Origin: Catenaria anguillulae PL171
Taxonomy: Eukaryota; Blastocladiomycota; Blastocladiomycetes; Blastocladiales; Catenariaceae
Reading direction: 5' to 3'
Length of the DNA: 64,000 nt
Assembly (NCBI GenBank): GCA_002102555.1
Contig: MCFL01000024.1
Coordinates: forward strand, 310,001-374,000
The position numbers were made by a program, and so were the translations under genes. The notes under the pieces are model-generated. The model saw only the letters and a program-made list of their open reading frames with translations. It ran no database searches and was not told the DNA's origin. Of this stretch, positions 1,744 to 50,439 are shown piece after piece (position 1 is the stretch's first letter; every line of letters begins with the position of its first letter).

Positions 1744-2985
1744 ATGTCGGATGCAAATGCCTCCAATTCAACCGATGTCGTGGTGGGCGGCGAAGAAACC
1801 GTGTGTGTCCTCATCGCAAGTGACCCCCCCCCAAGCCAGAAGTAACGCGACAATCGGTTACAATAATAGTGCACTAACCAACAAGGTCGGCTCATGCACA
1901 GGAGTACTTTGTATGGAGCGGCGAGAGTTTTTTTGTCGGGACAAACATCACTTTCCACCTTGCTGCGCTCTGGACGTGCCTCATGTACATTCGAAATCGT
2001 GCACCCACTCGCGCATACTTCATGGGAACCGCGGTCGTGGCCACAATTCGATGCATCGAGGTATTTCTCGGCGCCGCTGCAGTCACACACAGCGAATCGT
2101 CGGTTCCAATGGCAATGACCAAGGCATTCTTCAGTGCTGTGAGTCATTCAACGTTACTGTTGATTCACGTTCGAAGGCACGCATCGTGCGAGTATCCAGT
2201 CCATGACCGCACAGCACGCACCAACTGGAGGTCTGACGATGACGCTGTTGCATAGGGTCCAGTCCATGGCGCATCACTCTCTGGACCAAGACTCGACCTT
2301 TCGTCGGCTCTTTCTGGTGTTTGTAGTCCTCGTTTTCATCAGTGTCATCACATTGCTTTGGAGCGTTGCCGACACAATCCTCCCGCTCACGCTTCAAACC
2401 CAAGTTACGTCGTACACGGTGACCTTGGGAAATATTGGTTCGTGGCATGCCCTCTGTCTAGGCATTTCACTGCAAACGCTCATTCCACACAATACCAATT
2501 GACATTTTTTGAGTACCAGCCTCGGCCACGCTCGTCAACTTGACCCATGTGATCCTGCTTCTGTACGCCATGTCCATTCAATACCAAGAAACGCGCAGTC
2601 CAACGCTCCTAGTCAAACCTGCGCTGATGTGGTGGACCGGAGCTATGTTTGGGCTGGCTTGTCTTGGCAACACGGTCGCCGTTGGACTGTGCGCAATCGA
2701 CCCACTGTTTGATCCTCAATGGGGTTTGTCAAACTTGATGATTGGGGTTCAAACGCATGCATTTACAACGTACGTTTGACGAAGCGGACGATATCGTGCC
2801 TGTATTGCCGGCTTGATTGACTCGGCATTTACTGTGGTCAATCATTGATTCAAATCAGGCTGCTCGAGTACTATTGCAAGCGGCCCAAGGTCAGAACGAG
2901 CGTCTCGACGTCTGACACGTCACTTGATCCGGCAAGCGACCAAATGAAAAAGAAGCCGCATGTCGAAAAAACGGGCTCGCGATGA
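1744..2985 (+). CDS. Seven-helix membrane protein, family copy 1 (5 exons)
   Basis: Exon model 1744-1800, 1902-2176, 2256-2437, 2520-2769, 2859-2985, giving 296 residues with all phases closing. Seven hydrophobic segments are visible, the first beginning at the family motif FVWSGESFFVG and the last at LMIGVQTHAFTT, followed by a basic tail rich in Lys. It belongs with the copies at 29.6, 36.6 and 49.2 kb: all have a very short first exon ending in phase 0, a second exon of 275-278 nt, and a phase-2 intron after an Arg codon. In this copy that second intron uses a GC donor (GCACGC). Two extra introns here are absent from the other copies. Function unknown; the topology resembles a receptor-like or transporter-like protein but no named family was recognised. 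Confidence 0.7.
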
Positions 2986-3151
2986 CACATACTGTTAGGC
3001 CGATATTAGAGGCAGATGACAAAGAAGAGGGTATACATGAAATTCTTGGTTCAAAATGGAACGGACACGTTCGTTCAAGTGTACAAAGTGTAAGTGACAG
3101 GTGTCGATGGTTTGTGCACGTAGTATCAAGCGCGGTCAAGCATGTCTGCAC

Positions 3152-5535
3152 TCAATCGTCCTTGACCTCCATACTCGTGATACGGTTTGCGCCGGATGCT
3201 TGCTCCATGTGCGCAGCCAAGTACTCGCGGCCACCGCCGTACGACTTGACGTCCTCGACCATCATGTACCTTGTTGTCACCTTGGACCGCGTGTACGTTT
3301 GGAGGACGTAGCCATCTAAATAAACATGTCGAGAGTTGAATGAGCAAGTCAGGATTTAAAGCCAGAACAAGAGACCAAACAGTTGGACACGTACGGCGAT
3401 ACAAGTCGACCCACTGAGCACCCTTGTTGAACCACTTGAGCACGGGCGCGGCCAGCTTGTGCTTCCAGCGCTTGTCCGACATGGGCGTTGACGATGTGGT
3501 GCTTGGCGTGACGTACTCGGTCATGACGCTGCCATGGCCTGTGTGCTTGTCGTACTTGCTCTTGTCGGCAAACAGATTGGATACGTAACTGGCGTGGAAA
3601 TCACCAGTGAGAATGAGCGTATTGTTGATGCGGCGCTGGTTGACAAAGTTGAGCAAGCCGTCACGGGCAGCCGGATAGCCTATGCAAGGAATCAAAGGTG
3701 GGTGAGTGCGTGGGTGTTGACATGGCGACGAAACAAGCCAAGCAAGGTGTGTCAAAACGAACGAACCCATCCAGGTATCACTCGTCAACGGGATCTCCCA
3801 GCCCAAAATGCGCTGCAACACGGGCGCAAACAGGACTTGCTGAGCAACCACCTTCCACTCTGCCCTCGACCCTTCAAGATTGCCATACAGCCATGCCTCC
3901 TGGTCCTTGGAAATCAGCCTGCGCGTCCCGCGATTGCCCCTCGCCTGCTCGTCGCGTCCATCCGCCCGTGTATCCATGAGAATCACATCGGCCAGCGTGC
4001 CAAACGAAAACTTGCGGTACACGCGGTACATGTCATCCTTTGCGTTTTGCGGGCGGATCGGCATGTACTCGTGGAATGCTCGAGCGGCGGCAAACTTGCG
4101 CTGCGAAAAGGGTCCGTCGCGGGTCGGGTCGTGGTCGGGCGCACCGTCGTTCCAAGTGTTGTCGGCAAACTCGTGGTCTGAACATATGTACATGAGTCAC
4201 AACATCGAGCAGTGAGTGATCGTCTTTCTCGACTTTTGTTCCAACTGAAATATGGACGCACCATCCCAGATGGCCACAAACGGCTTGACGGCGTGCATGC
4301 GCTGCAGCGCCTTGTCCGTCTTGTACTGAGCATGTCGCTGGCGGTAGTCGGTCAAGGTGACAATGTTTTTCGCGGGAACCGGGTTGCGAGTGGCGGGCAA
4401 CGCCTTGATGGGACTTGGGTACGACTTGAGATCGTATTCGTAAATGTAATCTATGGAGGTAAGGAAAATCATGAAAGGCGTCAGCGTTCCAAGAGGGAAA
4501 CAGAGTCGTAGATCTCAAGAGACTCGCATTCTTTACCTCCAAGACCAACAACAACATCGACCTCCTTGCGCTCCGCAATCCGGTCGTACGAATGGAACCA
4601 CCCGTGAGCCATGTTGGAGCATGTGACAATGGCCAGGTTGAGCTCATTGACTTGGTCGGTCTCGCGCGGAAGCGTCTTGGTCTCCGCAATGGGGCTAACA
4701 GCGTCGCCAGACTTGAATCGGTAAAAGTACGTCGTGCGAGGAGACAAGCCCTTGACGTCCACCTATCAGCATGCGAGAGAAGGATGAGCATCTTAATCAT
4801 CTGCCTGTGGCAGCGTGGCCGTGCCGGAAGATTTGGGGGAAAGACGCACCTTGACGACGTAGTCAACATCGTCTGAAGTGAGGACGGTTCCACGAAACAC
4901 CGGCTGCCGGCGAAACTGAGCATCTTGCGAAACCTCGTACTGAACGACCACCGGACTGGAGCGAGGTCCGCGATTGGTGATCTTGGTCCAAATAATCACG
5001 CTCGACTCAAGGGGATCTATTTGCGTGCACACAATGGGGGGAGACACGGTCACTGACGTTGGGGAGGCCGATCGTGCACAAAACACCGTAATGAGTGGGA
5101 AACTAGTTGTAAAGACGTACCCCCGGATGCGACACCGTGCTCAAAGGAAACAGGGGGATGCTGGAACCTGTTGCGACGACGACGACCGTGCATGAACTCG
5201 TCGCCAAACGAGTCCGGGTCGTCCGGGTTGGGCACGCGACCAGCACTCGGAGTGTCTTGGGTGTTGCGGCGGGGCTGCGGATTGGCCGTTGCCATTTGCC
5301 TGCTCCTGGGCGCATGACCGAGAAGTGTCATTGCGTGGCGGTCATTGAGCGGGACAGCTAGTTGTGGGACGTTTGTGAATGGCGATTGGAACGCGAGGTT
5401 TGCGTCGACATTGTCGAGAAGTGCATTAGGGTTGAATACAACAGACTCTCGGTCTGAAGAAGACTCACCCATGACTGAGGATCCAAATAGTGCGATGGCG
5501 AGGAGCGATACCAGTGGCAGCAGATAAAAGTGCAT
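3152..5535 (-). CDS. Secreted PhoD-type alkaline phosphatase/phosphodiesterase, copy 1 (7 exons)
   Basis: Exons 5535-5121, 5016-4850, 4762-4537, 4450-4262, 4177-3767, 3679-3395 and 3315-3152 give 618 residues. Residues 1-23 are a clear signal peptide. Next comes the PhoD N-terminal beta domain (FEHGVASGDP at about 131-140, then SVIIWTKI and TTYFYRF), then the metallophosphatase core: GDYIYEYD (269-276), WDDHEFADN (331-339) and TGDFHASY (494-501), the metal-ligand motifs of PhoD enzymes. The family hydrolyses phosphomono- or diesters with a Fe/Ca centre; a signal peptide suggests a secreted or wall/vacuolar enzyme for phosphate scavenging. A same-strand paralogue follows at 6715-8845; this copy has two additional introns and one shifted intron. 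Compared with copy 2 it has a longer N-terminal linker (about 50 residues, RRRRNR). Confidence 0.9.
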
Positions 5536-6714
5536 GATATTGCGTGTCCGAGTAGTGGATTGAGGTCGAGTTGTCTAGTGAGTGCGGTCTAGGCAGCATC
5601 TATTGTTGGAAATACTACATACGTTGATTGAAGAGGGAATGGCATGTATTTGAGTGAGCGAGGGGGCACGACTGCATGGGACGGGCAACCGCAAACAAAC
5701 GCCACGGGGAGAACAATGCACGCCTTTGTGTGGTCTCAGTCACGGCCCGTTGGCCTCGGGGAACAGTGCAAACACAGCAGGAGCAATTGGCGGCTAACTT
5801 GGAGCGGACATATTGTCGTTGGTCCGTCTCCGCTCACCTGGCAACTGTTCCGCCAGTCTCAAAGTCGCAAGGGATCTCGGGAATGCGGGGCCGTTGACAT
5901 TGGGTAGCATGTAAATTTCATACCTTGCTTGAAACCACTGGAGTTCTGATGGGCGTGGGTTGGGTCTGAACTAGGAGGCAATACAGTGTCGTAGGTTAGG
6001 CGATTGAGGTCATTATTCAGTACTTATGGCACGCTGCTGGAATAAATGTGACGCTGGCATTTATGGCTGAGCGCCGATGTTTCAGCTGAGACATTCGTCG
6101 TGGCCAAGACGGGTCCATTCATCCGACGACGAACGCGCTCACGGCCGGTTGCTCACGGCTCACTGCTTCAACACTCCTGCATCATCCGCATCCGACTACT
6201 TTGCAGCCAATCTTTGGCAACGATCGTCGGGGACTAAAGGTAGGGGCGACAAATCCTGGGGCTGACGTAGATGAGGGCGGTTGCGTGGTTGTTGAAAATG
6301 TTGCAACAAGCTTCTCGATACCATTTGGCCAATTCTTTCATGGTACAAGGACACCGTCGCGGGCCGGTAGGGGCGGGATCAGCAGGCTTGGTGCGCCATG
6401 GCGCTGGGAGCAGATGCCGGTGCAGCTGGCTGCCGACGACGCTGGGGCCCATGAGTCAACCGGTCAAGTTGTGCAGACAAGGCAGGTCGCATTGCAATTG
6501 GTGGAGAATTGTCCAAGTATCATTGTTGCCGTCGACATGCTTGTTTTCCACCACAGCTCGAGCCGGAGTGGATCTGCGTCCTGTCACCGCTCATCTTGAC
6601 ACGAATCGTTGAAAAGACATACTTGCTTGCACGGCACAGGTTCCTGAATGCAGTGCAATGCCAAGGTCAAAATCAAGTCTATTAGTGGTACAATAAAGGG
6701 AGACAGTGTGACTA
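5536..6714. other. Intergenic between the two PhoD genes
   Basis: No convincing coding frame, RNA or mobile element. It contains the upstream region of copy 1 and the 3' end of copy 2; the short frames seen here have no recognisable motif. Confidence 0.5.
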
Positions 6715-8845
6715 TTACGGAATGTAAGTCTTAGTGATGCGGTTGGATCCCGAATTGCTTTCGAGCACCGCGCCCAAAATCTCAGTGTCGTCTGCCCTGT
6801 CCTTGATGGAACGCATAAAGTAGTGCTCGGTGCGGACACGCTGGCGGTCAAAGTTGACCAGCATGTAGCCATCTGTTACAAGTTGACGGTCAACAACAGT
6901 CACAACACAAAATGGAAAGAAACTAAACGCTCGCGTACGTTGGTACAAATCGACGAATTTCGCACCCTTGTTCGTGGCATGCACAACAGGAACCGCCAAC
7001 TTGTTGAGGAACCATGAATCTTGCGCAGGTCCGGCCGATGTGACCGACGTGACGGCAAACTCGACCGCGACCGAGCCCTTTCCGGAGCGGCGCTCGTACT
7101 TGCGCTCGTCCCGATACAAATCAGAAGCCACAGAACTGTGGAAATCTCCTGTGAGGACGACGACGTTGTTGATCTTCTTGTCTTCAATCAGGCCAAGTAG
7201 GGCATTACGGGTGGTTGGGTACGCGATCCACATGTCGCCCGTCACACTCCATTCCCAATCCAAGATTTTGCCGGGCATCTGGGCCAAGATGATCTGGTTG
7301 CCGAGCACCTTCCATTGCGCCTTGGACTCGACAAGCGACGTGTGCAGCCACTTTTCCTGCTCGGCGCCAATAAGCTTGCGTGTGGGCCGGTCCTTGCCGG
7401 TCCATCCATTGCCGCCCGTCTCGCGGCCTTCGATGCGCGTATCCAACATCAACAAGTCGACCAGGTCACCGTACTTGAAGCCGCGGTAGATCTTGAGCAG
7501 GTCGGCAGATGCCTCACCCGTGCGGATTGGAATGTACTCGTGGAACGCACGAGCGGCGACCAATTTGCGAGTGGCCCACGTCCCGTCAGTGGCGGGTTTG
7601 TGATCGAGGGAGCCGTTTTGGAAGGCATTGTCGGCAAACTCGTGGTCTGACAAGATAGATGCAGAATGCGCGGCAAGATTGAGTCATGTTGTCCCTCACG
7701 CACAAAAAGCAAATAGTGACGTACCATCCCACACTTGAATGAATGGATGAGCAGCGTGCACAAGTTGCAAATCGGCATCCGTCTTATACTGAGCGTGGCG
7801 CTGGCGGTAATCGGACAAGGAAGTGATGGTCTTGGCGGGCATCGGATTGCGCTCGGCTGGCAGAGCACCGCCAATTGCCGGGTAGCTAGCGAGGTCGTAT
7901 TCTGTTTGGAAATCACAAGGTTGGTAAACAAGAATCAGTGGGTGATGTGACGGAAAGACCAAAACACCTACCGTAAATGTAATCACCAAGATGGATCACG
8001 GCATCCAAGTCCTTCTTCGCCATTTGCCGGTAAGCGACAAAATACCCGTGAGGCATATTGCTGCACGATACCAGGCCCAATCGCAAGTTATCGACAGTAG
8101 CGTTGGCGGCGGGGAAGGTCTTGGTGCGGCCAACGGGCGAGACGACACCGCCAGCGTTGAAACGATAGAAATAGGTCGTTTGCGGGGCAAGATCGGTGGC
8201 ATCCACCTTCACAGTCCAGTCCACGTCTGCCGACGTGACAACGGTCCCCGTTTTCACGATGGTGGCAAAGTCGCGGGTGGTGGACACCTCGTACGAGACG
8301 CTGGCCGAGGCGACAGAGGCCGATTGTGGCGAGACACGGGTCCAGAGGATGACACGATCGGAAAGCGGATCTGCACATGTCAATGGGGATGTGGAGAGTG
8401 TCATGTTAATGTGAGAATGGCGAATGGCGAATGGAATGCATGGTTGGGAGTGGGGTGTCTCATGGAATGAATGGAGCTAAGCCGACAGGTGTCTCGCGTT
8501 CGCCTCAGCCACTCCGCCACCAACAGAAATTGCTGTTGGCGTCAATAAACGCCAACAAACCTATGCCCCAGTCACCCATCAACCAAAAAAAGTGCAAGGC
8601 TGCAACATACCACCACTCGCAACACCATGGATAAACGACACGTCGGCATTTGCGTCGCGCTTGGTCAACAAGTGGGTACGGGCAACTTGCGATGGCTCGA
8701 CGGCAAGGTGAGGGTAGTTGGCGAAGGGCGAGGCGTAGGCGAGGTTGTCTTGGTGGCGAGCGAGCAGCTCCTCGGGCGTCAAGGCGGCCGAAGCGAGCTG
8801 TGCAAACAGGATGATGGCCACAACGAACTTGACGGAGCGGACCAT
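6715..8845 (-). CDS. Secreted PhoD-type alkaline phosphatase/phosphodiesterase, copy 2 (5 exons)
   Basis: Exons 8845-8611, 8370-7972, 7901-7725, 7646-6939 and 6872-6715 give 558 residues. Signal peptide 1-20 (hydrophobic core VVAIILFAQLASA), PhoD N-terminal domain (FIHGVASGDP, TTYFYRF), then catalytic motifs GDYIYEYD (about 207-214), WDDHEFADN (269-277) and TGDFHSSV (436-443). Length and motif order match copy 1 throughout, so the two are a tandem duplication in the same orientation, now clearly diverged. Three introns are at identical codons and phases in both copies; the intron near DYIY is displaced by 12 nt, and two of copy 1's introns are missing here. The likely role is extracellular phosphate release, as for copy 1. 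Confidence 0.9.
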
Positions 8846-14828: not shown

Positions 14829-15337
14829 TCAGGGCGGCCGGCCGCAAGTGCTTGAATCCGTCAATTTGGACTTGCGCCCTGCCAGTTCAACGCTGCCACG
14901 ACCGACACTGCTCGTTAGGGAGGAAGCAGCGACCACGGGCGCTTGATGATTACCACCTGCGGGAGTCGCTTTGACGCTCCTCTTCCCGCTGGCACGTGAG
15001 CTCGTCAGGGCTCCTTGCCGTCCAACGAGCGCTTTCGTCGAGGGTATTGTGCTGTGGATGAATGTGAAGAGCAAGGTCGCTGGCATGGCGTTGCGATGTG
15101 ACTGCAATACGTAGGTGAGGTAGTTGGCTGTCGAGCCCAAAAGGAAGAAGAGCAAAAGGCAAATGCTGAGGTGGATTGTTGCTGTCCTCCTCGACGATCC
15201 ACCACACGCTCGTACCGATGGCGCCGAGCATGAGGAACAGACTACAGTTGATTGCATGATGAACTTGCTCTGCCGCTTTGGATTTTCTGAAACGACCCTG
15301 AATCGGTACAGTCGCAGAATGGTCACCACCAACGTGT
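14829..15337 (-). pseudogene. 5'-truncated, frame-broken copy of the seven-helix gene at 15.5-16.8 kb
   Basis: The segment starts right after an intron-type acceptor (CTGCAG at 15343-15338), with LVVTILRLYRFRVVSE matching the second exon of the neighbouring gene (LVVTLLRLYRFRVISE). After FIMQST the frame must change to continue with the helix-4 equivalent (SLFLMLGAIGTSVWWI), then change back to match ANYLTYV, AMPATLL and STIPSTKALVGR of the neighbour's C-terminus. Exon 1 (helices 1-2) and the helix-5 region are missing. The tail with repeated Ser, Gly and Lys is retained to a TGA at 14831-14829. This is a degraded tandem duplicate; a short expressed fragment cannot be ruled out. Confidence 0.65.
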
Positions 15338-15533
15338 CTGCAGTAAAAAAAAAAAAGTGGACAGAATGCGCTGCCTCGCAAGATCGTTATGCAGGGTGTG
15401 TCACGGCAATCGAAAAGGGCCGGACTTGCACTTACATGTGACACTGAGACAGAGCGGAAACACAAACAAGAGATTTCGATGTATGAGACGCGACAACGAT
15501 ACTCGATACCGAATTTCTGTGATCCATTCCGAC

Positions 15534-16755
15534 TTACTTCTTATTCATGATGCTCGCACGGCTTGACAAACTCCCATGATCCGACGGCGATGTTGAAATT
15601 GTTGAGAGTTGACGATCTGACTCGTTGGCCAAGCTTCCGCGACCCACACCGCTCGTCGTAGTCGGCGCAGCAACTAAAGTTTTCGCATTCTTTCCGCTGT
15701 TGGTCGACTCTTTACTGCGCTTTCCCGCGCGCGAACTGGTCGACCCTTGCCTTGAAACGCGGCCGACAAGTGATTTGGTCGCCGGGATGGTGCTTTGGAC
15801 AAACGTGGCAAGCATGGTGGCGGGCATTGCCGAGTAGTGCGAAAGGGAAACATAGGTCAGGTAGTTGGCAGGCGATCCGGAGATGAAGAGCGAGCCGAGG
15901 ACTGTACATATGAGAAAGTGGATGAGCGTTGGAATATAGGCGAGGTAGGTCTTCAAAAAACTGTCATTGAGAGCAAGGAGTAAATAGGACTCGTCATCAA
16001 ACAACAGCAAACTTCAAGGACTGACTCCCAAACATACACAAGTTTACCCTGCTTCACAATCGCATTGCCCATTGCGCCTTTGCGAATGTCCAAAATGGTG
16101 CGAACAAACCAATAATCGGCAACGACGTTAAATGCCGCCGTGAGGAAGAAGGCAAAAAACCCGAAAATGCCTTCGATATTGCGAATGAGGAGGAGAGAAG
16201 GTGGTGCGCCGTCTTGGTTTCCGTTCGTCAGGTGCCAATAAAGTTCTTCTCCAATAAGCCAAATGATGTTGGTGACAGTGGCTGTGAGCATGATTACGGA
16301 AACGATAGTCGAGTGCATGACGAATTTCCGTAGACGGTTTGGATCCTCGGAAATGACTCGGAATCGGTAAAGTCGGAGAAGTGTGACAACCAACATGCCT
16401 GTACCGCGGTGTGGCAAAAGAAGACGATGAGGTAAATACATCACCGACAGCGTCAGAAAGGGACATCCCACACACCAATTCGAGCAGACGAGTTTCCAAC
16501 AATGGGCAAGTATGGCACGCGTCCAATTAGCTCGGTCACCACCTGAATTCCCAGCAAGATGGCATGGATACTCGGGGAAAGCAGAACAACCGAAATGGTC
16601 AAACACCCGGTCCAGAACCGAGTTTTCGCTTTCTGGTACTCCAACAGGGCAGTCCGAATCGTGAAACTGTTGGCAATCAGCAGAATCGCGTGCATGAAAA
16701 TGGTCCAGTATACGCCCGCGATTCCCTCCAGTGGGGACGAGATGTGGGTTGTCAT
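15534..16755 (-). CDS. Seven-helix membrane protein, divergent family copy (3 exons)
   Basis: Exons 16755-16476, 16398-16038 and 15960-15534 give 355 residues. Seven hydrophobic segments are seen, including TIFMHAILLIANSF, ISVVLLSPSIHAILLGI, VSVIMLTATVTNIIWLI, FGFFAFFLTAAFNVVADYWF, TLIHFLICTVLGSLFI and YSAMPATMLATFV. The cytoplasmic tail of about 80 residues is Ser/Lys/Gly-rich, without helices. Overall topology and loop placement (a Lys/Arg-rich loop after helix 1; an ILR/LLR-Y-R motif before helix 4) are like the copies at 1.7, 29.6, 36.6 and 49.2 kb, but sequence similarity is weaker and the short first exon is absent, so kinship with them is inferred. Its immediate downstream neighbour is a truncated copy of itself. 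The second intron could use an alternative donor; I chose GTATGT with acceptor GACAG because phase closes. Function unknown. Confidence 0.68.
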
Positions 16756-18130
16756 GATCGTTTCGAAATGTTTATGCTTTCAGTTGATGGTACGGGTGAT
16801 TTGGTGGTGGCATGTGGAACCTCGCACCGATAGTAAACACTGTCAAGCGAGAATACGCCGACAATGTTTTGTTCTTGTACGTGACGTGTGTCACTCTGGA
16901 CCTGATCAAAGTTGGCGAAGAATAAGCGTTGAAGTAGTTGAAATAAGTGATGAACGCCTATCCACAAGGCATAGTACATTTTCCCGGGAATCATATCGTA
17001 GGGGGGCGTCATTACCCAACGAGAACCCATTGCCTGTATTCCGACTGGAAGCGTCATATGCCCACTTGTCGGCCCGACACTGCCATTAGCCACCTGCTAC
17101 TGCAAACATTTTTGCACCTCTGCTTGCTACCTATCTTTTATTCAAACTCAGCGTGCAACGACCACGACAGGGCAGCCGCGACAGTCACCACTCCGATGGC
17201 TAAGCTAGATCTTGACGGCAGACTTGGGACGAGCAACACTACAAGATCCTGCATAATAAAGCACTACCAGTCAACGATTCTTGCATGCTCGGTCCCGAAC
17301 GAATGGTCCGTGATGGGGCAACAGCCAAGTGTATGCGATGTAGAATGATCGGGTCAAGTCTTTCGTAGAATGTTGTCGACGAAGGGCGCTGAATTGAGGT
17401 TCTCTTGCCTGGTCATGTCTCTTAGTACCACTGCCATCACTTTGTGACTTACCGTAGTCCCTTGTAGGGCACTTACTTAATCCGAGAGGGAGAAAATAGG
17501 CTCCTGTCATGTGAGTCTCCGGGTGGTGGGGATGTATGCGTGTGTGTGGGCTGGATGAGAAGCGGAAGACTTCATGAAGTGTGCAAGCTGATCGGAATCG
17601 TTAATGACGCTATTTTTTGCCTCACGTCAACAAAGGTGGCTGATAAACCAGAGATGACCGTGTACGAAGCACAGGTAGTCAGGTATGTACATCGGTGAAC
17701 GGTCAGCAGGAGACAATGTTCGCATGGCAGCGCGCTGGCAACAAGAACACAAACGGTTCAGCGAACGGACCAAGATCGATCGGTCCTTCGCATCGCATCT
17801 CGCCCTCAAAGATTTACTTGAAATGTTTACGTGGTATGTAACTTGCAGAAATAAGCCATTCTTGAGCCATAAGACATTGCGCAGCAATACTTGACTGAGA
17901 GCATTTGCAACGATTGGTGCGTGCAATATTGCATACTCGCAATCACACCGTTACGAGCGGGTCCCCGATCTGCCTGCATGCCAGATTTCATCAAGCCCCA
18001 ACAAACGCAAGCCTTCCACCAAGCCACCAGGGCATCCACAGTCCTTCTCGCTGTCGCTCTTGCCACACCACTCAGCTGACCAAGCCAGCCCAAGCCATCG
18101 CACCAACCAACCGCCCATACTCTCTGGTGA
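16756..18130. other. Intergenic, nothing recognised
   Basis: About 1.4 kb with only short unconvincing frames on either strand. A minus-strand frame at 16752-17093 abuts the seven-helix gene but has neither the family motif nor a clean donor. No RNA gene or repeat seen. Confidence 0.45.
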
Positions 18131-25624: not shown

Positions 25625-28600
25625 ATGATGATCACGTCAAACGTTCCCACGAACCATCACAATGAGGGCGAGAGCCTCAGGACAAGGGCAAATGGTCAAG
25701 TAATCCTCAAAACGCACTGGGCAATGTTATCCGAACCGCAAACGACCGCCTCTCCAGGTCCAGAGCTCGATAACGGGGCAGGATTGCCACCAGCCAAATC
25801 GGTTGAAGGACCATCGTCGCCCGCCAACGGTACTGGCGACGCCTCAAACGACGCGTTGGCAGCTTCGCCGACGAGCGATGCGGCGACGGGGGCTGACCTC
25901 CAGCAACAACCGCAGACGCCTGGAGGTAGTGGCGGCGGCGCAGGACTCACAGCTGCCGATATTCCAACCAACCTTCTGGTCGCCAATGCCAACACGATTG
26001 GGTCTTCACTCTCGCTCAACCCAACTGCCGCGGTTACCGCCGACCATGACGAGAATGATCGCAAGCATTTGACTGCAAAGGAGGCTCGGCGGCTCGAGAT
26101 GCATGCAACCCTGACAGACAAGTCCAAACTGCCCAAGTCGTATTGGAACAACTCGCCCAAGGAGGATCGGACACTCAAGTATGTCGACAATTTTGAACTT
26201 CAATACTCGACCCTTTACCCTCACCGGACGCGGTTGCTGTTGGCGCCCGAGAACGAGTTTGGATTACGGGTGCGTATCAACGGCATGTCTTTCAATGGAT
26301 GGCGTGAGTGTGTTTCTGACGCAGCCCGATCGTTCATGACTCTAGAAATTTGTTTGCACAACGATTCGCCCGACGCAGTTAGGGTACCGCGAGCTCTACG
26401 ACTATCGACCGTGCGCTCGTTTTGTCGCCGATTTCATCTCATACCAGCCCCTGGACCCACCCTACGAGCTGGCACGTTCTCTATTGCACGGTCATGCGCC
26501 GCATGACTTCTTGTGTGTTGACATGTGATTGTGCCCATGGCGCCATCCAGCCACCTGCTCTCAACAGCCCGACGTACACCCTTTCCATGCAATCTGGCAA
26601 CTGCTTCGACATGGCCGTCATCCTCGTTTCCCTCCTCCGTGGCGCGGGCTACGATGCCTTTGTCGTGAGCGGCTACGCGACCCGCACTCTCACGCTCATG
26701 GACGAAACGCACGTGGATGTTGATACCAATAAGCTCCTTCAAGAAACCGGCTTTGTACGTACCGAGCTGGGTGAGTCCGAACGCGACGCATACTCGATTG
26801 ATACGGGGAGTCAACTGTTGGCCAAAGCAGAGACTGCTACGACGGAGTTAGCCGGGAAAGCGGTCAGCACCAACGGGACTGGCGAAGATCCAAAATACAA
26901 GATCAAGGTCAAGAATGCGCTCAAGTCGCGGTACTTGGCGACAATGGAGGCGAAGCGGCACGCAGAGCAGGAGAGGCGGCAGCAGTTGTTGAAAGAGAAA
27001 TTGGCGCAGCAGTACACGCATCATGAAGAAGACGACGAGATTGCCGGGCTGAGGATTCACGCATGGGTGCTTGTTTTGCCCGGCAAGCGAGAGGTAGCCG
27101 AAGCGTTCTTCATCGGTATGTCCCCTCTTTTTCTGTCAGCGACGGTGCTCCGACAAATCATAGACTCGTGCTTTGTGCGGCGTGCAGAGCCAAGCACAGG
27201 TAAAGTGTACGACATTGAAGACCCCAACTACCTCGGGGTTGAGAGCGTGTTTAGCTCGAGCAACTACTGGGTCAACATGCAAAAGTGCATCAATGGCCTC
27301 AAGGTACTCGTCAACTTGCCACCCGCAACGTGCGTGGTAAACGATTCTGACACATGATTTGGACCTGCTGTCAAGGGTATCACGTTCGACCTCAGCGACA
27401 CAACCAAGTGGGAATACATCTTTGTCCAAAATTCGCAACCTACTTTTGCTCCATCAGGGGGCTCGGGAACAAACACCCGTGGCGGCTCAGCCATGACGAC
27501 CGCCACGACCGGCAGCGACGCACCCGGCAGTGCAGCTGGCGGAAACGTTGCCAACGCCGACGATGACGACGATGGTGATGGCAAGGAGGGCTCGGGTGAT
27601 ACGGAGGTGTTTGACCTGCCGCCTTCCTGGGTTACCAAGATCGAACTGACCAAGGAGCAAGTCGCATCGCAATGCCCCGCTGGAACCAAGGTGCAAATGT
27701 GGCGCAATGCCAAGATGGAGGTGTTTGCGCCGTACCATCGTCCCGACGGCATGATCACGCGTATCACCCTCTTTACAGACCCACGGCGCGCCGAGCGTGG
27801 ATCGATTCACGAGCGGTTTGATAACCGTGCTGACAAGTTGTGGAAGCGTGTCCGTGTTCCCGCGCGTGGGCTGACTCACGAGTTTTTCGAGCGTGGCCGC
27901 GCATTGGCGTTGATGGAACACGTGATGGAGCACGGGCGCACGCTGAGAATGAGGTTCTTCCCGGGGGCTCGGTCGGACGGCTTGTACGATAGGCTAGAAG
28001 TGGGCAACAAGATTATCGAGCGGTTCGAGGGGAGGGGCGATCGGCTGGTGTATCGAAGCGTGACGCATGAAGCCGTGAATGAGGGAGATGAAGAGTTTGC
28101 GCCGACGGCTGACGGGACAGCTGCGGTCGCTGGCGCCGATGCAGGCGCGGCTCGGGGAACCAATGCCGTTGGTCAACAAGTTACGATTACCAAAATGACG
28201 GAAAAGTTTTCTCGGCGCCCAGGATACAGTGGTCAGTTGTTTCCGTTCATGGCAGCGGGGCAGCCACTCAAGAGGCCTGGCGTACAGCAGCAGACATGGG
28301 GAAAGGCCACAGTCATGGGCGTGGGGGTTGGAGGCAAAACTGGCACTGGCGATTCGCCCGGATCGGGAACAGCTGAGGAGGACGATGTCGCTCTTGAGCC
28401 GTCAAGCGTGGCCAATTCAACCACAGGAGCCGCGGCGGCCATGCACTTTGGTGGCCGCGACGTGTTCAAGCGTGTTTACCATGTCCGTGAGGAGCGAATC
28501 CGTATCGTGTACCATACGGACGTTGGCGCGCTGATTCCCGCATGGCGCGAGTTTCGTAAACCGTCCACAGAGCAAAAGACCACGTTTATGGACTTGACGA

Positions 28601-29396
28601 CCGCTTTCGATACAAACCCGCCGTTGCATGCACTGAAGCGCCAGCATTTATATGCGAAGTTGTGCGAGCTGCTCAAGGCGGAGCAAGCATGCTTGCAGGC
28701 AGTCAAGGCGAGTGACAGGGAAATCAAGGAGATTCTGACGGTGCGACTCACTTACTGCCTTCGCTAGACCTGCTCGATCACGTACTGACTGGACTTGCGC
28801 GGAGTGATACAGGCTCGGCAAACTGAGGAAAAGAGTATTCAGTTGACAGTGTCACTTTTCGACACCATTCGCAACAAGACGGTCCGTGCTTGGTCTCTTT
28901 TTTTGCTGTCCGAAGCATCTTCCCTCATTTTCTCCATGCTGTCTATCAATCTCAGGATATTGCAAGCGAGCTCGAAAAGGAGAGCCAGAAGCAAGCTGAA
29001 GAAGCATCCAAGGAAGCATCTGTCGACTATCTGTCGCCCTTCCTCGTCAACGTCGCGAATCCAAACAGTTTAACTCGTGACGAGGCGCTTGCTGTCCGAG
29101 AAGCCTGCCTTCGCTCCTTCAAGGAAAGGCTGATTGAAAAGGCATCCATCATTCAACGTCGGTACGAGGAAGAGACGGCGGCGTATCAACGACGTCAGCA
29201 GCAATACTCCAAGACGGCCGAAGGAATGACACCAGCGGAAACGGACGAGTATGTCGCATTTTGCAATGAGGCCTTGTTCCGTATTCATGTCTTGGAGAAG
29301 CGCTTGTCGAGGCACAAGGATATGGCCCCTGAGATGTACTTGCAGTTGGATAAGAAGCTAAGGAGCGATCCGAGGTTGCGCAGCGCGGGTCAGTGA
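25625..29396 (+). CDS. DRC7: DRC7 (CCDC135), nexin-dynein regulatory complex subunit (7 exons)
   Basis: Exons 25625-26269, 26346-26471, 26551-27115, 27188-27303, 27376-28740, 28813-28881 and 28956-29396 give 1108 residues. Diagnostic blocks: KFVCTTIRPTQ then YRELYDYRPCARFVADF, the cysteine/transglutaminase-like core GNCFDMAVILVSLLRGAGYD with FVVSGYA, the block EAFFIEPSTG...YLGVES followed by NYWVNMQ, and a long charged C-terminal half with LMEHVMEHGRTLRMRFFPGARSDGLYDR. DRC7 lies in the linker of the nexin-dynein regulatory complex between axonemal doublets. The protein is longer than human DRC7 (874) owing to about 190 low-complexity N-terminal residues and Ala/Gly-rich insertions around 790-860. 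The second intron has a GC donor (GCACGT) and is needed to join YEL to PPALNSP. An in-frame ATG further upstream (25445) begins a hydrophobic run that I regard as non-coding. Confidence 0.92.
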
Positions 29397-29651: not shown

Positions 29652-30791
29652 ATGTCATCCTTTACGTCGGTTCGATACTGGCTCTTTGATTGGTTTCTTC
29701 CTTCTTGCTCTCACTCGTGAAATTTGTCTTGCAATTACATACCTCGCGAGCAGGAGACCTTTCAATGGTCTGGAGCAGTGTTTTTGTTAGGCCCGAACCT
29801 GATTTGGCTCGTACATGCCATGTTTTCATCTTGGCGTCTCTTTCAAAGGTCGAAGCGGTCATCTTACTACCTAGCCATGTTTGCCATTGCGATCTTGCGG
29901 ATTGTTGATATCGCACTCAACTGCTTTGTCATGAATCTTGAGGATGAAAACGATGCTGCATTCTGGTTCACGATCCAGGGGCTTGTTGAATGGCCAGCAT
30001 CTACAGGATTTACCTATTTGAATGCTTACCGGTACTTTACCCACTCATTCATCTGAATGTCCTTGTTTGTTAAAGCAGCTTGTTTCCAGGTTGCACAAGG
30101 TTGCCCGCAATTGGAGCCCTCGTCTCACCAATGCATCCACTGCGCTCATGTGGGTCAATATGATCACATTCAACCTGTCCATGGGAGCTTATGTGTACTC
30201 AACCGCAGCTCGTATACCTTTGGATCAAGCGAATTTCTGGTTTGCGTTTGCAAGCATGTACGATGCTGTCTTGAATGCCGGGATATCAAGCGTATTCTTG
30301 CTGTACTTGCGAGCAGAGGGTCTGGGCGCTCCTCCTGGACCGCATCCGGTCAGTGGGCAACCGCGTTTCCCACTTCTTTCTGTCAGTTGCAAGAACAGGC
30401 ATCACGGGGTAGGCGACGCCAAAGATTGGAAAGGTGGTGTGCGCAAAGGGTTACATCGTTTAGTGCAAGAAGACAGTATCTTGATCCCCGCAGAATGTCT
30501 CGCCATCATTGCCAGTAATGCGCTGCAGGTGGTTTCCAGGGACTTGGATCCAACGTGGTCGACCTACTATGCAGCCGAGGCATTTCGACTGTATGCTTTC
30601 ACCAAGTTCGTCTATTTCGCCTTTTTTGCGCCTGCAACGCACACTATGCCTGACAAACAGCTTACCTGACCAAGTGTAGGTTCCTGAAAACTCTTAATCG
30701 AATCATGCTGCAAGGCAATAGCTCAACAACTCTCCATCAGGCTCGGCTCGTTTCTCGACGCCATCACTCCGATCAATGTGGTCAAGGGTAA
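29652..30791 (+). CDS. Seven-helix membrane protein, family copy (4 exons), close paralogue of 36.6 kb gene
   Basis: Exons 29652-29669, 29754-30031, 30090-30605 and 30680-30791 give 307 residues. The first exon encodes only MSSFTS. Exon 2 opens ETFQWSGAVFLLGPNLIWL and runs through helices 1-3. Helices 4-7 lie in exon 3 (LMWVNMITFNLSMGAY, FWFAFASMYDAVLNAG, ILIPAECLAIIASNAL, AAEAFRLYAFTK). Exon 4 supplies the tail FLKTLNRIMLQ. The same exon lengths (18, 278, 516) and splice phases occur in the copy at 36628-37718, which lies 7 kb away with PRP6 and the AKR-like gene between. A hydrophilic loop of about 70 residues between helices 5 and 6 differs most between the two. Function unknown. The last intron (donor GTTCGT) is supported because both copies then share the FL-TLNRIMLQ tail. 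Confidence 0.75.
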
Positions 30792-36627: not shown

Positions 36628-37718
36628 ATGTCACCCATCACTTCGGTTCGATGAGCCCTCCCATCACGAGCTGCGCTGTCAATACTGTAAACGCTCACTG
36701 TCGGTTACTCCCGTTTTGCAGGAGTCTTTCGCCTGGTCTGGGTCTGCATTCTTTTTGGGACCCAATCTGATCTGGCTCATTCATGCAACACTGTCATCGT
36801 GGACCTTGTTCCGAAGGTCAAAACGGTCATATTACTACTTGGCCATGTCCTGCATCGCAATCTTGCGCCTCCTTGGTATCTCGATCAATTGCTTTGGAGC
36901 CAATCTGCCGGACATGAACGACGCTTCAAATTGGTTAGTGGTTCAGTCCATTGTTGAATGGCCCGCATCCATCGGGTTTTCCTTCCTGAATGCGTACAGG
37001 TACGTTTTCTTATCACCTGGACTGTTCCCACGCACCGAATGATACATATTTGTTGAACAAATGGAAAAAGGTTGCAAAAGGTCGCTCGCACTTGGAGCCC
37101 TCGCCTGGTCCGCGCGTCCAACTTACTCATGGCTGTTAACATGGTGACATTTAACGCTGCCATGGGAGCGTATACATATTCAACCATTGCACGACTTGCC
37201 GTAAATCGCGCAAATTTCTGGTTTGCGTTTGCGAACATGTACGACGCCGTCTTGAATTGCTACATCTCGGGAGTCTTCTTGCTGTACTTGCGCGCAAAGG
37301 GACTGCAGACCGGACCAACCACACCCAAGGGCAGTTGGAGATCACGGATTGGACTGTTGCCACACCAAAATCGCGCGGGAAACCACACAAGAGACGATGA
37401 GGAAGACAAGAAGGGTGGTATGCGCCAAGGATTGAAGAGCTTGATCCAAGAAGACACTATCTTGATTCCCGCGGAATGCCTTGCAGTTATCGCTGGCAAC
37501 GCACTCCAGGTCATTTCTCAAGAATTGGATCCAATGTGGTCGACGTTTTATGCGGCAGAGGCGTTTCGCTTGTATGCGTTCACAAAGTCCGTCCTTTTTT
37601 GTTTCCTCGTTTTGGCAGATGACAGCGGCGCTAAGCGGTCTGAAGGTGTAGGTTCCTGACGACACTCAACCGGATCATGCTTCAGAACAACAATACCGTC
37701 GTGCCTCGGAGGCATTGA
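36628..37718 (+). CDS. Seven-helix membrane protein, family copy (4 exons), close paralogue of 29.6 kb gene
   Basis: Exons 36628-36645, 36722-36999, 37071-37586 and 37652-37718 give 292 residues. Exon 1 encodes MSPITS; exon 2 opens ESFAWSGSAFFLGPNLIWL; the tail is FLTTLNRIMLQ as in the copy at 29.6 kb. Exons 1-3 have exactly the same lengths as in that copy and conserved blocks are spread throughout (ANFWFAFANMYDAVLN, ILIPAECLAVIAGNALQVIS, STFYAAEAFRLYAFTK). Seven predicted helices, with the variable hydrophilic loop between helices 5 and 6 rich in Asp, Glu and Lys. Even the intron-1 start (GTTCGAT) is shared, showing a recent duplication. The two copies are in the same orientation and flank PRP6 and the AKR-like gene. 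Function unknown. Confidence 0.75.
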
Positions 37719-42967: not shown

Positions 42968-43597
42968 GTTGTTGATGATGAGGTTAAAAATCGACGATCA
43001 CAAATGGGATTGGACTTGAGCTGCTGGATGGATGAACCGAGGGAGAGGGCAGACAGCGAGGAGCCAAGGTGGAAACAGTGTGGGAATGAGGAATGAGATG
43101 AGATGGAATGGGTACAACACTGGCACTGTTTGCGTTTGCGGGAACGGGATGGATGGATGGAAGGACAGAGAGATGAGAGATGGATGGACAATTGGATGGA
43201 TGGATGGAGACAGATCGAGGCGGATCAGGTCGGGGGCGGGTGAAAACAAAAGGGGGGAGGCGGGCAGAAATCAACGGGAAACGGCAATTGCGGACGGTAC
43301 AAAGTAGCCACCAATTGTGGGATGTGAATGTAAATGGTCTTTCAGAGCGAAACAAATTTGACAAACCACAATAGTTGACAAAGTTGTGACTCGTGTGTGT
43401 TTGCAAGGCCGCCGATCCGCTTCCTTTTGCCGATCGTTGACCACACGATTAAAGAGGTCTATGATTGTGTTGGATGTGCTTGAGAATGCGATGGTGCAAA
43501 ACACGAACTGCTAAAGAAACTTTGGGGCTGCAACAAAGCAAAGGGAAACAGTCAGAAAAATGAGCGACAACGACTCCATACTGCCAATCGCATAATC
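42968..43597. other. Intergenic/5' leader of KH gene with GGAT repeat
   Basis: Contains imperfect (GGAT)n tracts at about 43147-43160 and 43180-43208, purine-rich on the plus strand and so pyrimidine-rich in the sense of the KH transcript. The rest up to 43597 holds the 3' UTR of the SH3 membrane gene. No gene seen. Confidence 0.55.
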
Positions 43598-45022
43598 CTA
43601 AGACGACGCGGCCACCGCCTTGACAACAACCTCCCCAGACACCTGATCCCTCGTCATGGACGTGGACAAGTTTGACGGCGGCGACCCTGCCGCCTCCGTC
43701 CCTCTCGACATGGACTCACCCGCCTCCTTAACGCTGCTGCGACTCAAACTCGCCGACCGCTGCGTCAACAAGGTATCCGTTCTGCCCACATCCAGCGCTC
43801 CTAACGGGAAGAAGCCAGTCACCGCGTCGGGACCCGACGGCCCATTGGGATGCCTTGTGCCGCGCGCCCACAAATCTGGGAACCGCGAATGGATCGTGAC
43901 CGTGTCGCCCGGGCTGAGCGCCACTTCGTCATTGGCGCGTGCGATAAACCCCTTGCGCACGGACGCAAGCGTGTTTTCCGTGATGGGAAAGTCGCGGTCG
44001 TCAATCAGTGGGCCGCACGTCCCGTCGGGGCGGAACACAAGCGGGAGCGGGGTCAACGTTGGGAATGAGGCGGTAGTGGAGCGGTCGGCAGAGACCGTGT
44101 TTGTGTTGGTTTTGGGATCGATATCGGGAGCACACGTTGCATTGGTTGGTGCCGATGATGGGGGTGGCGAAATCGTGGGGCCAAGTGGAAGGGTGGGTGC
44201 ATGCGAGGGGGTGATGCCTGGTGACGGCGGGACAATAATGGCGGGAACAGCAACCTCTTCGTTGGACGAGATGGAAGGCGCGCTTGGAAGACGCGAGACG
44301 AGGAAATTGGGTGCTGTTGCGGCGGGCGCCGAAAGTTGTGGGGGCGAGCTTGGCGACGTAATGGTCACTGTGGGTGCGTCTCCCGTTGTGGTCGTTCGGC
44401 TGGCAGGTGGAATCGACGACAGAGACAAGAGGCCCTTGTTGGGATCCCCGTCGGACCCGCGGCGTTGCTGGAGGGCCAGACGTTTGGCACGGCGAATCCA
44501 AGCAATGCCCGCAGCACCAATGATGATGAGAATGGCCGCGGCGATGCCAACGACGGCGCCAACGCTCAAGCCTGAATCATCCGTGGGAGCACCGCCGCTG
44601 GAGCCACTTTGAGTACCTGTCGTCGCTGTGGGTGCCAAGGCGGATTCGGGTGCCACTGCCGAGGTTGAGTTGGCTGGTGGAGCGGGCGACGGCTGAGGTG
44701 CCTGGGTTGGGGTGGCGGTTGCAGGCCGGGGCAGAATGATGCCTGGCGGGAGTGCAGTGGGAAGCGCCGTGGGAAGAGCGCTCGGTAACATGGACGGAAT
44801 CTGGCCCAGATCGATTTGGGCACGTGGCAGTGCCTCTACCAGCGATGCGTATGCCACAAGGAGAGCCAGGGCAGCAAGCATCATGGCTGCCTTTCTTGGG
44901 GTGGTTCTGCTGTTCGGCCGGCCGAGGCAGGGCAAGCACGGCGGCCCGCTCGCCCGGGATGTTGTCGGCGTTGACGATGTTGACGTTGAGATGGACATGA
45001 TGGTCACCGTGAAGGATTGCAT
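43598..45022 (-). CDS. Single-pass membrane protein with cytoplasmic SH3-like domain
   Basis: Uninterrupted frame of 474 residues. A hydrophobic segment MMLAALALLVAYASLVEA at residues 47-64 looks like a signal peptide, so the real start may be Met47 (44884) or Met48. Then comes a Pro/Ala/Thr-rich, mucin-like ectodomain, a transmembrane helix VGAVVGIAAAILIIIGAA at about 155-178 with a following RRAKR stop-transfer, and a long Ser/Pro/Thr-rich cytoplasmic region. The C-terminus at about 350-415 reads as an SH3 fold: ARANDEVALSPGDTVTI, a Trp in DLWARG, and GFFPLGAL. The layout is like fungal wall-stress or osmosensor proteins that couple an O-glycosylated ectodomain to SH3 signalling, though with one helix rather than the four of Sho1. 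Function inferred from architecture only. Confidence 0.78.
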   Translation of the reverse strand: MQSFTVTIMSISTSTSSTPTTSRASGPPCLPCLGRPNSRTTPRKAAMMLAALALLVAYASLVEALPRAQIDLGQIPSMLPSALPTALPTALPPGIILPRPATATPTQAPQPSPAPPANSTSAVAPESALAPTATTGTQSGSSGGAPTDDSGLSVGAVVGIAAAILIIIGAAGIAWIRRAKRLALQQRRGSDGDPNKGLLSLSSIPPASRTTTTGDAPTVTITSPSSPPQLSAPAATAPNFLVSRLPSAPSISSNEEVAVPAIIVPPSPGITPSHAPTLPLGPTISPPPSSAPTNATCAPDIDPKTNTNTVSADRSTTASFPTLTPLPLVFRPDGTCGPLIDDRDFPITENTLASVRKGFIARANDEVALSPGDTVTIHSRFPDLWARGTRHPNGPSGPDAVTGFFPLGALDVGRTDTLLTQRSASLSRSSVKEAGESMSRGTEAAGSPPSNLSTSMTRDQVSGEVVVKAVAASS

Positions 45023-46331
45023 TGCCTCAGGAGTCTAGGAATGAACGATTCAAGAGCCAAAGCAGAGGGCACACTCGATTTTGTGAGCGTCAATGCGTCG
45101 ACAGTATGTATATTTTGACAAAGAGTTGCACCGCACCGCATTGCACTGATCCTCAGCTCGCTCATTGCAAGCTCGCATCATCCGTCTGTGCTTGCTCGCT
45201 CGAAGATCCCAACTTTGGACCCTGGACCGCCGTCCGTGCATTCACAGTTGAAGTCGCCGACGCCATCCGTCAAGAATTCGTGTGGCCCTCAGGCCCACAT
45301 GCCATGCCGAGATTGGGCATGGATGTTCTTCCTCGCTTGATGAATGGTTGACGAGGTTATTGGCCCACAAGTTATGAATGAAATGAGGCTGGGTTTGCGA
45401 CTATCTGGTTGTCGCCTTCACTCCCATCCCCACCTCGGCAGCCCATTCATCATCTCGTACAAATGATGCCAATGCAACGAACGGAAAGCTCTGCCGGTGA
45501 GAGCCAAGCGTCCAGCATGTCTCACCTTGCTAAGGTGTCGCTTATCTTGAACCCATCGTCACCTGTCTGCGCTGGTCTGGGTTTATGTCTGTAAGCGGTG
45601 ACGTGTGGACAGATAGGGACGAGTGAGACATGTACATATGCCCGGCTCATGCTCACCTTGATTCCAGGGTAGTTCTTGGATTCGATTCCCCTGCCTGCTG
45701 TGTGCAGCGAGAATTGTATACATGGCGATTGGCGGGGCAGTGGGTGGTAAATCAACGTCAACGCGCCCAAGGCGAGGCTATCCAAAAACATGTGCAGAGA
45801 TCGTACTGGGGTGTAGGGACTTGGCAAATGAATCGGGCATGCATTGCAGGCATGTTTACTACGGCAGTATATATAAGCAGTAGGGCAGGGACATGTCTCA
45901 TCTTTCATTTGTGAAGGGAAAGCTTCAAGGGAGGGAGAAGCTGCCTTCAAGTTGCAACTGTGCATCGCAGCGCGATCAGAGTGTCTCGCGGCAATCGTGC
46001 CCCAAGAACCTTGTGGAAATCGCGTCACTCCACTTGACAACCTAAAAACAAGCTGCCGTATCGGGACGACTCGGTGGCTGCGCGTCTCGCACGCGTCGTC
46101 GTGTCCTGAACACCAACACACACCAGCACTGCCCACCAACGCACACAAGAGCAAGAGAGCAAGAGAGCAAGGTCAGATCGAGAGATTGTGCGCGTGCTGC
46201 CTTGCCGCTGTGCTCGAGAGTACAAAAGCCCCTCGCCGCCCACCCATCATTCCTCCCTCTCTCCGACTTGACTCCTCATCCACACGTCTCCCTGTGACTC
46301 AACCTCCACCCTCCACCCTCCACCAACCAAC
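45023..46331 (+). promoter_or_regulatory. Enolase upstream region with TATA-like element
   Basis: 1.3 kb between divergent starts of the SH3 gene and enolase. A TATA-like sequence (GTATATATAAG) lies at 45867-45877, 455 bp before the enolase ATG. The last 130 bp are C/T-rich with CACCCTCCACCCTCCACC just before the start. A purine repeat (AGAGCAAG units) is at about 46149-46172. No coding frame recognised. Confidence 0.4.
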
Positions 46332-47737
<1,406 letters not shown>

Positions 47738-48273
47738 GCCGTGATTCTTCTCAATCCGTTCTCTCTTTTTTCGCGTCCCCTTGCATTCCCGTTGTGAATG
47801 TGCAAGTATATCCCACCAAGCTCATGTCCTTTTGTACGTGTGATTGTATATATCAACAATAGTTTTATCGCCTCTTGAGTTGCTTTCCGATGCCATCCTC
47901 CTGTGGCCATGGTCACACTCATGCATCCGGCCTCTTAGAGAACATAGCTCGTTTATACGTGTAAACCAGCGGACACGGATGGGGTCGGACGTGCGAGAAA
48001 TGCACAGAAAGATGATACACTGTCAACACGCCCACGATGGTGTCGGCGGCTGCAGTCAACCGCTTGCCTGCCGCTCATTTCGGTGGCGTTGCTGAAAGGT
48101 TTCCAAGGTTGGCTCGCTCCTCCTGCGTCTCATGCCCACACCAGTCACGACTCACGCACAGTACAAATACCGCAAGCTGCCCGCTCTGTCCCATTCCTCT
48201 CTCTCTCCTTTCCCTACGAGTAACGGACACTCCAATGAATGCCCAGCATTGAGATAATCAAACAAAATCCACC
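47738..48273. other. Intergenic, nothing recognised
   Basis: 3' UTR of enolase and upstream region of the C2 gene. No coding frame recognised; the stretch before the C2 start is C/T-rich. Confidence 0.5.
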
Positions 48274-48928
48274 ATGACTGCCTCTTCTACCACTGCCACG
48301 CCCGCCACTCGCCCGCTGCGCATCTCGTCGGTCGAAGTCACCGTTGGTGCGTCCGCGACCACTTCCTTCCAAATGGCTCGTCATGTTTGGCCAGACAGAT
48401 GCTGACCTCTGCCAGTGGCGTCGTCACACGACCCACTTCCCCAACAATCAGTCGAATCGCGCGGACTCAAGGACTCTGACTTCTTCGGCAAGGCCGATCC
48501 TTACCTGCTCGCCACCGTCGGCGACCACACCCTCAAGTCCAAGGTACGCACGCGTGTATCTCGAGCTGCCTGTGCCAGTTGAGGTGCACCCCAATCTCAT
48601 CTAACCCTGATCCGCTCGATCGTCCCGTGTCTGCCCATCATAGACCAAGGAATCCGCAGGCACAAACACGTCCTTCAACGAGACCTTCATGTTCCCGCTC
48701 TCCTCGTCGTCGTCAGCCGCGCTCGCCAATAACTCTTTGACCATTGACCTGATGGACGACGACACCATGGGCCGTGACGATCTGCTGGGCCGTGTGTCGA
48801 TTCCGCTTGCCGGCCTGCTGGTTTCGGGCGCCGTGGATCAGTGGGTGCCGCTGACAAAGAAGGACGGCAGGCCCATTGCCGGCGCAGAGTTGCATGTCAA
48901 GGTGTGGCCCAAGGCCGTCATGGAGTAA
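48274..48928 (+). CDS. Small single C2-domain protein (3 exons)
   Basis: Exons 48274-48346, 48452-48543 and 48644-48928 give 149 residues, essentially one C2 domain. Features: LRISSVEVTVVESRGLKDSD for the first strand and loop, FFGKADPYLLATVG with the loop-1 Asp, then TSFNETFMFPL, the Asp-rich loop LMDDDTMGRDDLLGRVSIPL and a closing strand ELHVKVWP. The Asp residues (DSD, ADPY, MDDD, GRDD) are those that bind calcium in C2 domains, so calcium-dependent membrane binding is plausible. Similar short stand-alone C2 proteins occur in plants and fungi. There is no signal peptide or helix. Partner and process unknown. Confidence 0.85.
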
Positions 48929-49248
48929 ACATGGAGGGTTCATTTGTATGCATGTGAGAGTTGCGTGTGAGAAAGTGCAGGAATTCCCGGGATCGTGTCA
49001 TCATCATAATGTAATGGCCGGAGGTCAATCTTCTATTCCAATCCCTTCAACAAATAGTCTTGTGCGAGGCAACCAGTCGTCCAGCTCTTTACGCGATGTC
49101 GGACGACGCGTCATATCCCCACCCTGTATAGCTCTTCATGGCATGGCAGGTGAGTGCATAGATCCCTGTGCGACCCAAGAATTGTAGCACATGAAATGCA
49201 TAACTAGTCGCAATCCAATTGCATCCAAACGCATCAATATTCACCGCC
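48929..49248. other. Intergenic, nothing recognised
   Basis: 320 bp between the C2 gene and the next seven-helix gene, same orientation. No gene or repeat recognised. Confidence 0.5.
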
Positions 49249-50439
49249 ATGGCCGAAGAGGTACAGGCAGACCACTTTTGTCGCGTTCGCAAGTTGAATC
49301 GCGTCTCATCGCGACCCAACGCCTGACGTAAACCTCACCTCTTCCGTCACCATTCCCAATCTAGTCCGAAGTCTTTGTGTTCTCGCCCGAGTCGTACGTC
49401 TTTGGTGCGACCATCACCATCCACCTATGGACGCTTTACTCGTCCGTCAACCTATATTTTTCCACAAAGTCAAAATGGTACGCGGCCATTGCGGCGCTGG
49501 CCATGGGCCGCATTTGCGAGGTATGCATGTCGGTCCGGATCATGGCGCTGGGAATACCTGGCGAGATGGCCGCACTCGAGGTGGTCCAGCAAGTGATTAG
49601 TTGTGCGTGCCAGGTTGCGTTCGCGTGGATGCGGACAAGGAGGTACGGACTTGACGTTGATATCATGCCTCAGGTTAGTTTACTGAATGAACAAACTTGT
49701 GTACGTGCATAGTTTCCAACAAGTCTCAACACCCTCAACCACCCCGCGCGCTCTCACCCACACCATCCTCGCACTGACCTTTGTCAGCATCACGCTGTCG
49801 ACGCTGCTCAATCTGCTGGGCATTGTGGCCATGTTCATTCCAGCAACGCTGCCCAACATTGGGTCCACGTACCTGCCCTTCATGCTATTTGATTCGCTCG
49901 TGACGCTCGTGACGGCCTATGCCATCTCATCGACACTCCGCGCAGCCACGTCCTCGTCCCGCCCAGCAACGGCCATGCCTCAGATCATGCACGCACCGCC
50001 GCCAAGCAGCAAAGGCGCAGACGAAAAACACATTGCGACCGACACGACGGCCGCCACGCGCAAGTCCGAAGTGCTTGGGCTGACCAAAGTGGAGCGCATT
50101 GGGATGCTGCTGGGTCTTGAATCTGTCCTGCTCGTGTGCGTGCTGCTGGCACTCAATGCGTCTGCGCACTGGGACCCGTATTGGAGCTCCGTGTACCTCG
50201 GGTGGGCAATTGAAGGCAGGTGCTTTTGCGAGTACGTGTGTTTGGCGGCCAGGATCATGGGCGTTGGGTTTGGTGGCGGCGGCGCAAAGGGCCCGCAGTC
50301 GTCCTTGGCAACCAGCTCGTTTGCGCATTCGTCGGATGGCGGCCCGAGTGGGCATGCGCATGCAGGTGGGTCGTCGATGGGCAAGCAAAGCGAGACCATT
50401 CCGCCTGGGGCGCAGGTGGAGACGGTGCTCGGACACTGA
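49249..50439 (+). CDS. Seven-helix membrane protein, family copy (3 exons)
   Basis: Exons 49249-49260, 49365-49642 and 49713-50439 give 338 residues. Exon 1 encodes only MAEE. Exon 2 (278 nt, the same length as in the 29.6 and 36.6 kb copies) opens SEVFVFSPESYVFGATITIHLW and ends in phase 2 after TR, the conserved family splice point; exon 3 continues SFQQVST. Seven hydrophobic segments are seen, including ILALTFVSITLSTLLNLLGI, TYLPFMLFDSLVTLVTAYAI and MLLGLESVLLVCVLLAL. A Ser/Thr/Lys-rich loop of about 50 residues sits between helices 5 and 6, and a Gly/Ser-rich tail of about 70 residues follows helix 7 (EYVCLAARIMG). Sequence is well diverged from the other copies but helix order, loop position and introns match. 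Function unknown. Confidence 0.72.

Follow-up and report, generated by a model that had tools for sequence, protein, structure and literature searches.

A candidate family of orphan GPCR-fold receptors in the early-branching fungus Catenaria anguillulae PL171

To our knowledge, the sensing of hosts, food and mates by swimming fungal spores is poorly known at the level of receptors. A survey of 2012 is reportedly the work of Krishnan et al. According to it, Ste2 and Ste3 originated after the Dikarya split, early-branching fungi depend mainly on animal-type receptors, and Allomyces macrogynus has 78 glutamate-type G protein-coupled receptors (GPCRs) (PMC3251606). A later survey, of 2025, leaves 141,666 seven-helix proteins of fungi unidentified, proposes DUF6534 as a GPCR class beyond the 17 listed ones and considers Taste2 apparently missing from fungi; a word search of its main text gives no mention of Catenaria (PMC12842992). 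With so many proteins unidentified, families like the one described below may form a large unread share of fungal sensing. Here, we analyse a 64-kb stretch of the Catenaria anguillulae PL171 genome (the window; C157:310001-374000 of the 41.07-Mb, 457-contig assembly), which holds four intact copies of one seven-helix family (family 1: genes A, C, D and E) together with one intact (B) and one broken (Br) copy of another. We lean towards the view that family 1, comprising these four genes and about 20 further loci, represents expanded orphan receptors of GPCR fold.

Gene structure and genomic repertoire of family 1

Models of genes A to E (Table 1) were built by hand from DNA, and a self-written splice-aware aligner, fed the D protein, returned the D exons. 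The D product is letter-identical to the annotated hypothetical protein BCR44DRAFT_402529 (P0001) of the same strain; the database model of A (P0003) has 255 amino acids (aa) and misses the WSGE motif, so that annotation of the family is uneven. All introns are GT-AG, apart from a single GC-AG (A intron 2). The original prediction for this DNA had located the genes correctly and had described four of them as sharing a tiny phase-0 first exon of 12-57 nucleotides (nt) and a second exon of 275-278 nt opening with a (W/F)S(G/P) motif. Both features were recovered in A, C, D and E, with first exons of 57, 18, 18 and 12 nt and second exons of 275, 278, 278 and 278 nt, which have WSGESFFVG, WSGAVFLLG, WSGSAFFLG and FSPESYVFG, respectively, close to their start. 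The phase-0 intron just 5′ of the motif falls in a single alignment column for A, C and D, and E has it shifted by one column. A phase-2 intron, said to follow an Arg codon, has the proposed phase and a shared position (column 128) in all four genes, but it splits the codon, which in E is Ser; of the seven mapped paralogs, whose exons are rough, being fitted to family members, three have it as well (C439, C436 and C434). Another phase-2 intron, close to where helix 7 ends (column 332), is common to A, C, D and two of these seven (C439 and C436), and a phase-1 intron at column 198 is found in C101, C434, C57 and C334. Proteins C and D are 65% identical. A core profile of 11 family-1 members, from which A, E, B and F (a member at C157:240.7 kb) were left out, gave 82.9 bits for E, 47.9 for F and 34.9 for A; none of 1000 block-shuffled and 15 reversed controls exceeded 8.2 bits, the score of the best; leave-one-out profiles containing E or F were not used, as shuffles of E and F contaminate them.

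Table 1. Positions of the seven-helix genes and the broken copy within the window
Feature	Family	Position	Strand	Product	Exons or remarks
A	family 1	1744..2985	+	296 aa	1744-1800, 1902-2176, 2256-2437, 2520-2769, 2859-2985
C	family 1	29652..30791	+	307 aa	29652-29669, 29754-30031, 30090-30605, 30680-30791
D	family 1	36628..37718	+	292 aa	36628-36645, 36722-36999, 37071-37586, 37652-37718
E	family 1	49249..50439	+	338 aa	49249-49260, 49365-49642, 49713-50439
B	second seven-helix family	15534..16755	-	355 aa	16755-16476, 16398-16038, 15960-15534
Br	second family, broken copy	14829..15337	-		only stretches similar to portions of B exons 2 and 3 are left

Genome searches that used D, A, E and a further three paralogs as queries gave 39, 17, 15, 55, 54 and 14 matches, respectively (194 rows in total; for large families such counts are lower bounds). 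A selection of 54 rows that represents every place, with one dropped (E above 0.001) and neighbours merged, resolved into 38 clusters on 18 contigs, three of the clusters holding two genes each, which makes 41 places. After allelic merging the whole-genome count is about 25 family-1 loci if the copy upstream of A is counted, and nine of them lie at 240.7-360.4 kb of C157. Position and score alone were the basis for merging C253 with C422, the two C171 places, C434:37 kb with C1:712 kb, C69:50 kb with C413:107 kb, and C25:27.8 kb with C157:257.7 kb; two C1 places were counted as a single interrupted gene. The insertion of about 7 kb into a family-1 gene at C1:715289-722251, probably a mobile element, is absent from the other version (C434:52968-52969). 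More generally, several small contigs are near-identical second versions of segments of larger ones (main blocks 94-99% identity, flanks down to 82%), the contigs concerned being C48, C25, C434, C173/C436, C223/C439 and C413/C69, which means that some of the genome is represented by two versions in the 41-Mb assembly.

These versions allowed the ratio of nonsynonymous to synonymous substitution rates (dN/dS, ω) to be estimated for seven genes or gene parts: 0.20 for C (second version on C48), 0.55 for D, 0.15 for m1, 0.33 for m2, 0.26 for F, 0.20 for C413/C69 (five changes) and 0 for C223/C439 (one change). Pooled by hand, the seven pairs comprise 50 synonymous changes over 1157 sites and 43 other changes over 3697 sites, which supports purifying selection on family-1 copies in the pooled allele pairs, as would be expected of genes and not of relics. 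Between C and D ω is 0.10, with synonymous sites close to saturation.

Two observations concern the surroundings of these genes. Gene A is part of an almost perfect tandem duplication (at least 6193 bp, 99.95% identity, period 7580 bp; window 1-4771 against C157:301001-307193), which is either a recent event or an assembly artefact, and a single-base difference in a T run of exon 2 shifts the frame of the upstream copy of A. About 900 bases upstream of C, an open frame at window 27493-28767 (+) matches the MORN domain of dynein regulatory complex subunit 7, which we take to be a flagellar protein.

The receptor hypothesis and its alternatives

The structure model of D, of moderate confidence, displays seven helices in a GPCR-like arrangement; hydropathy agrees with seven helices in D, C439, C57 and A and is less clean in other members. 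A crude charge rule places the N-terminus outside in 12 of 15 sequences (14 from family 1, and B), and inside in the remaining ones, C101 (a tie), C334 and E. Family-1 proteins have a short N-terminus and inner loops that appear positively charged, the third of which is often long in D and its close relatives. In their conserved signature, helix 2 carries R/H and mostly D/E, helix 3 has N-x-x-R at its inner end, helix 5 contains D-x-x-x-N-x-x-x-S and helix 6 E-C, while D-P-x-W precedes helix 7, which itself bears E-A-x-R. Over 14 members, D252 is invariant, P253, W255, F269 and L172 are kept in 13, R99, D157, E234 and R265 in 12, and N96, N161, S165, C235 and R217 in 11. At the aligned columns A, the most diverged member, is devoid of N96, D157, N161, S165, E234, E262 and R265, and E of N96, R99, N161, S165, C235, E262 and R265, so that both may have lost or altered their function. 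Class A GPCRs are recognised by a helix-3 D/E-R-Y and a helix-7 NPxxY; neither motif was found in family 1, where N-x-x-R and E-A-x-R stand instead. Microbial rhodopsins bind retinal through a Lys in helix 7, and no Lys is present in those columns of helix 7 that half or more of the 14 members conserve.

As receptors, these proteins would span the plasma membrane, N-terminus outward, and a ligand would be held by outer loops and by charged residues in the core of the helix bundle; the ensuing rearrangement would enable inner loops 2 and 3, together with the inner end of helix 3, to activate one of the G-alpha subunits of the genome. Distinct members would answer to distinct ligands, as copy number and divergence suggest, plausibly in host or food finding or in mating of swimming cells; their use in zoospores is a guess. 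A G-alpha search of the genome found 62 exon matches, provisionally about ten loci after merging likely allelic pairs, the weakest matches possibly belonging to other small GTPases. Ten or so is many for a fungus, and this abundance of G-alpha exons speaks for the presumed coupling of family 1 to G proteins. The receptor-like expansion guessed at in the original prediction has thus gained ground, given about 25 loci, seven helices, the model of D and the selection pattern. Foldseek indicates structural likeness of the D model to GPCRs, and Pfam matches zero GPCR models in 12 members (E ≤ 10, filters on; PF02116 and PF20152 included). A bolder version, which we offer only tentatively, is that Blastocladiomycota possess their own GPCR class, distinct both from the animal type and from the named fungal classes, marked by N-x-x-R, D-P-x-W and an intramembrane E-A-x-R and forming a chemosensory repertoire of about 25 loci in C. 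anguillulae alongside a second unclassified seven-helix family.

The strongest competitor, although we judge it rather unlikely, is that family 1 consists of seven-helix transporters, channels or membrane enzymes, whose charged helix residues line a permeation path or make up an active site and whose resemblance to GPCRs reflects the shared seven-helix bundle only or a bias of the structure predictor. It draws on the unusually many conserved charged residues within helices (R/D in 2, D/N in 5, E in 6, E/R in 7), on the failure of all GPCR sequence models to match, on the moderate confidence of the D model, on Foldseek statistics (best E 0.011, with 5 of 50 rows non-GPCR) and on the presence of phage membrane proteins among viral matches. 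Profile searches against solved structures matched no receptor. Other Pfam matches were at chance level: ABA4-like (0.28, for C), PDR_CDR (0.057) and an apicomplexan microprotein (0.12).

That a named fungal class, be it Ste2 (class D) or DUF6534, includes family 1 as a strongly diverged branch is improbable. Ste2 does give the best structural match to the D model (7ad3, top by 2.3 Z; 7qbc and 7qa8 rank below TAS2R14), and the layout of helices 5-7 seems to resemble that of DUF6534. DUF6534 itself is put forward as GPCRs in the 2025 survey (PMC12842992). Against such descent, PF02116 and PF20152 remain unmatched by the 12 members and by the genome, the genome scan being weak, as 14 of 14 control genomes were also silent.

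Gene B and the second family

Gene B lacks a short first exon and opens its intron series in phase 1, and its middle exon of 361 nt is equally long in its relative on C79. Further relatives occur on C403, C407, C436, C135, C140 and C112, with a remnant on C48; in all, 18 places were counted at E ≤ 0.001, B and Br included and allelic pairs unmerged. Across seven aligned members R102, R105, E144, D188, F191 and Y219 are kept. The family has no convincing match in Pfam or among solved structures, a weak DC-STAMP match (0.0045) appearing in one of the seven, and its members may also be receptors. That all six copies, B and Br included, form one family united by topology, as proposed originally, is very hard to sustain: seven helices, apparently positive inner loops (22 against 2 in B) and a conserved R ending helix 3 recur in both families, but B scores 9.9 bits with the family-1 core profile, resembling shuffled controls, hhalign assigns a probability of 0.3% (E 0.1, with few sequences on either side), the exon layout of B is unlike that of family 1, and the genome places matched by B and a B relative do not overlap with those matched by the family-1 queries. 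The proposed kinship thus stands for A, C, D and E and falls for B and Br; by these comparisons the families are separate, a very remote link being still conceivable with so few sequences. Nor can Br encode the seven helices ascribed to it, its 509 bases being too short. In the second version of the region, on C48 (compared with window 14829-17482), the B stretch is absent and a different Br remnant is retained, so B is seen in one version only.

Comparison with known systems

Protein database searches returned three C. anguillulae proteins or nothing; about 8000 candidates were scored in each, and C and E themselves were not returned, though part of the query alignments, so that this narrow set says little on presence elsewhere or on the lineage-specific character guessed at in the original prediction. 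Prokaryote genomes scanned with D gave 23 pattern matches and zero relatives. Viral matches in BFVD (herpesvirus GPCRs, giant-virus proteins, phage membrane proteins; E 0.009 and weaker) were too weak to use. Literature on Blastocladiomycota receptors or gene families and on DUF6534 contains, judging by titles and the beginnings of abstracts among the matches listed, nothing on family 1. If the receptor hypothesis is true, this large GPCR-fold family, for which Pfam has no name, would provide concrete receptor candidates in an early-branching fungus that possesses several G-alpha genes, and would bear on the question whether such fungi depend mainly on animal-type receptors.

Among described systems, Ste2 (PF02116) is 10% identical to family 1, which its Pfam model does not match, and class T taste receptors, a vertebrate family (TAS2R14 and others), are 7-14% identical. 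DUF6534, found mainly in Basidiomycota, is likewise a large unannotated fungal seven-helix family, but PF20152 is unmatched by family-1 members. The glutamate-type expansion of A. macrogynus belongs to a known GPCR family, whereas family 1 matches no Pfam GPCR model, and yet the two are alike in being large and in occurring within Blastocladiomycota.
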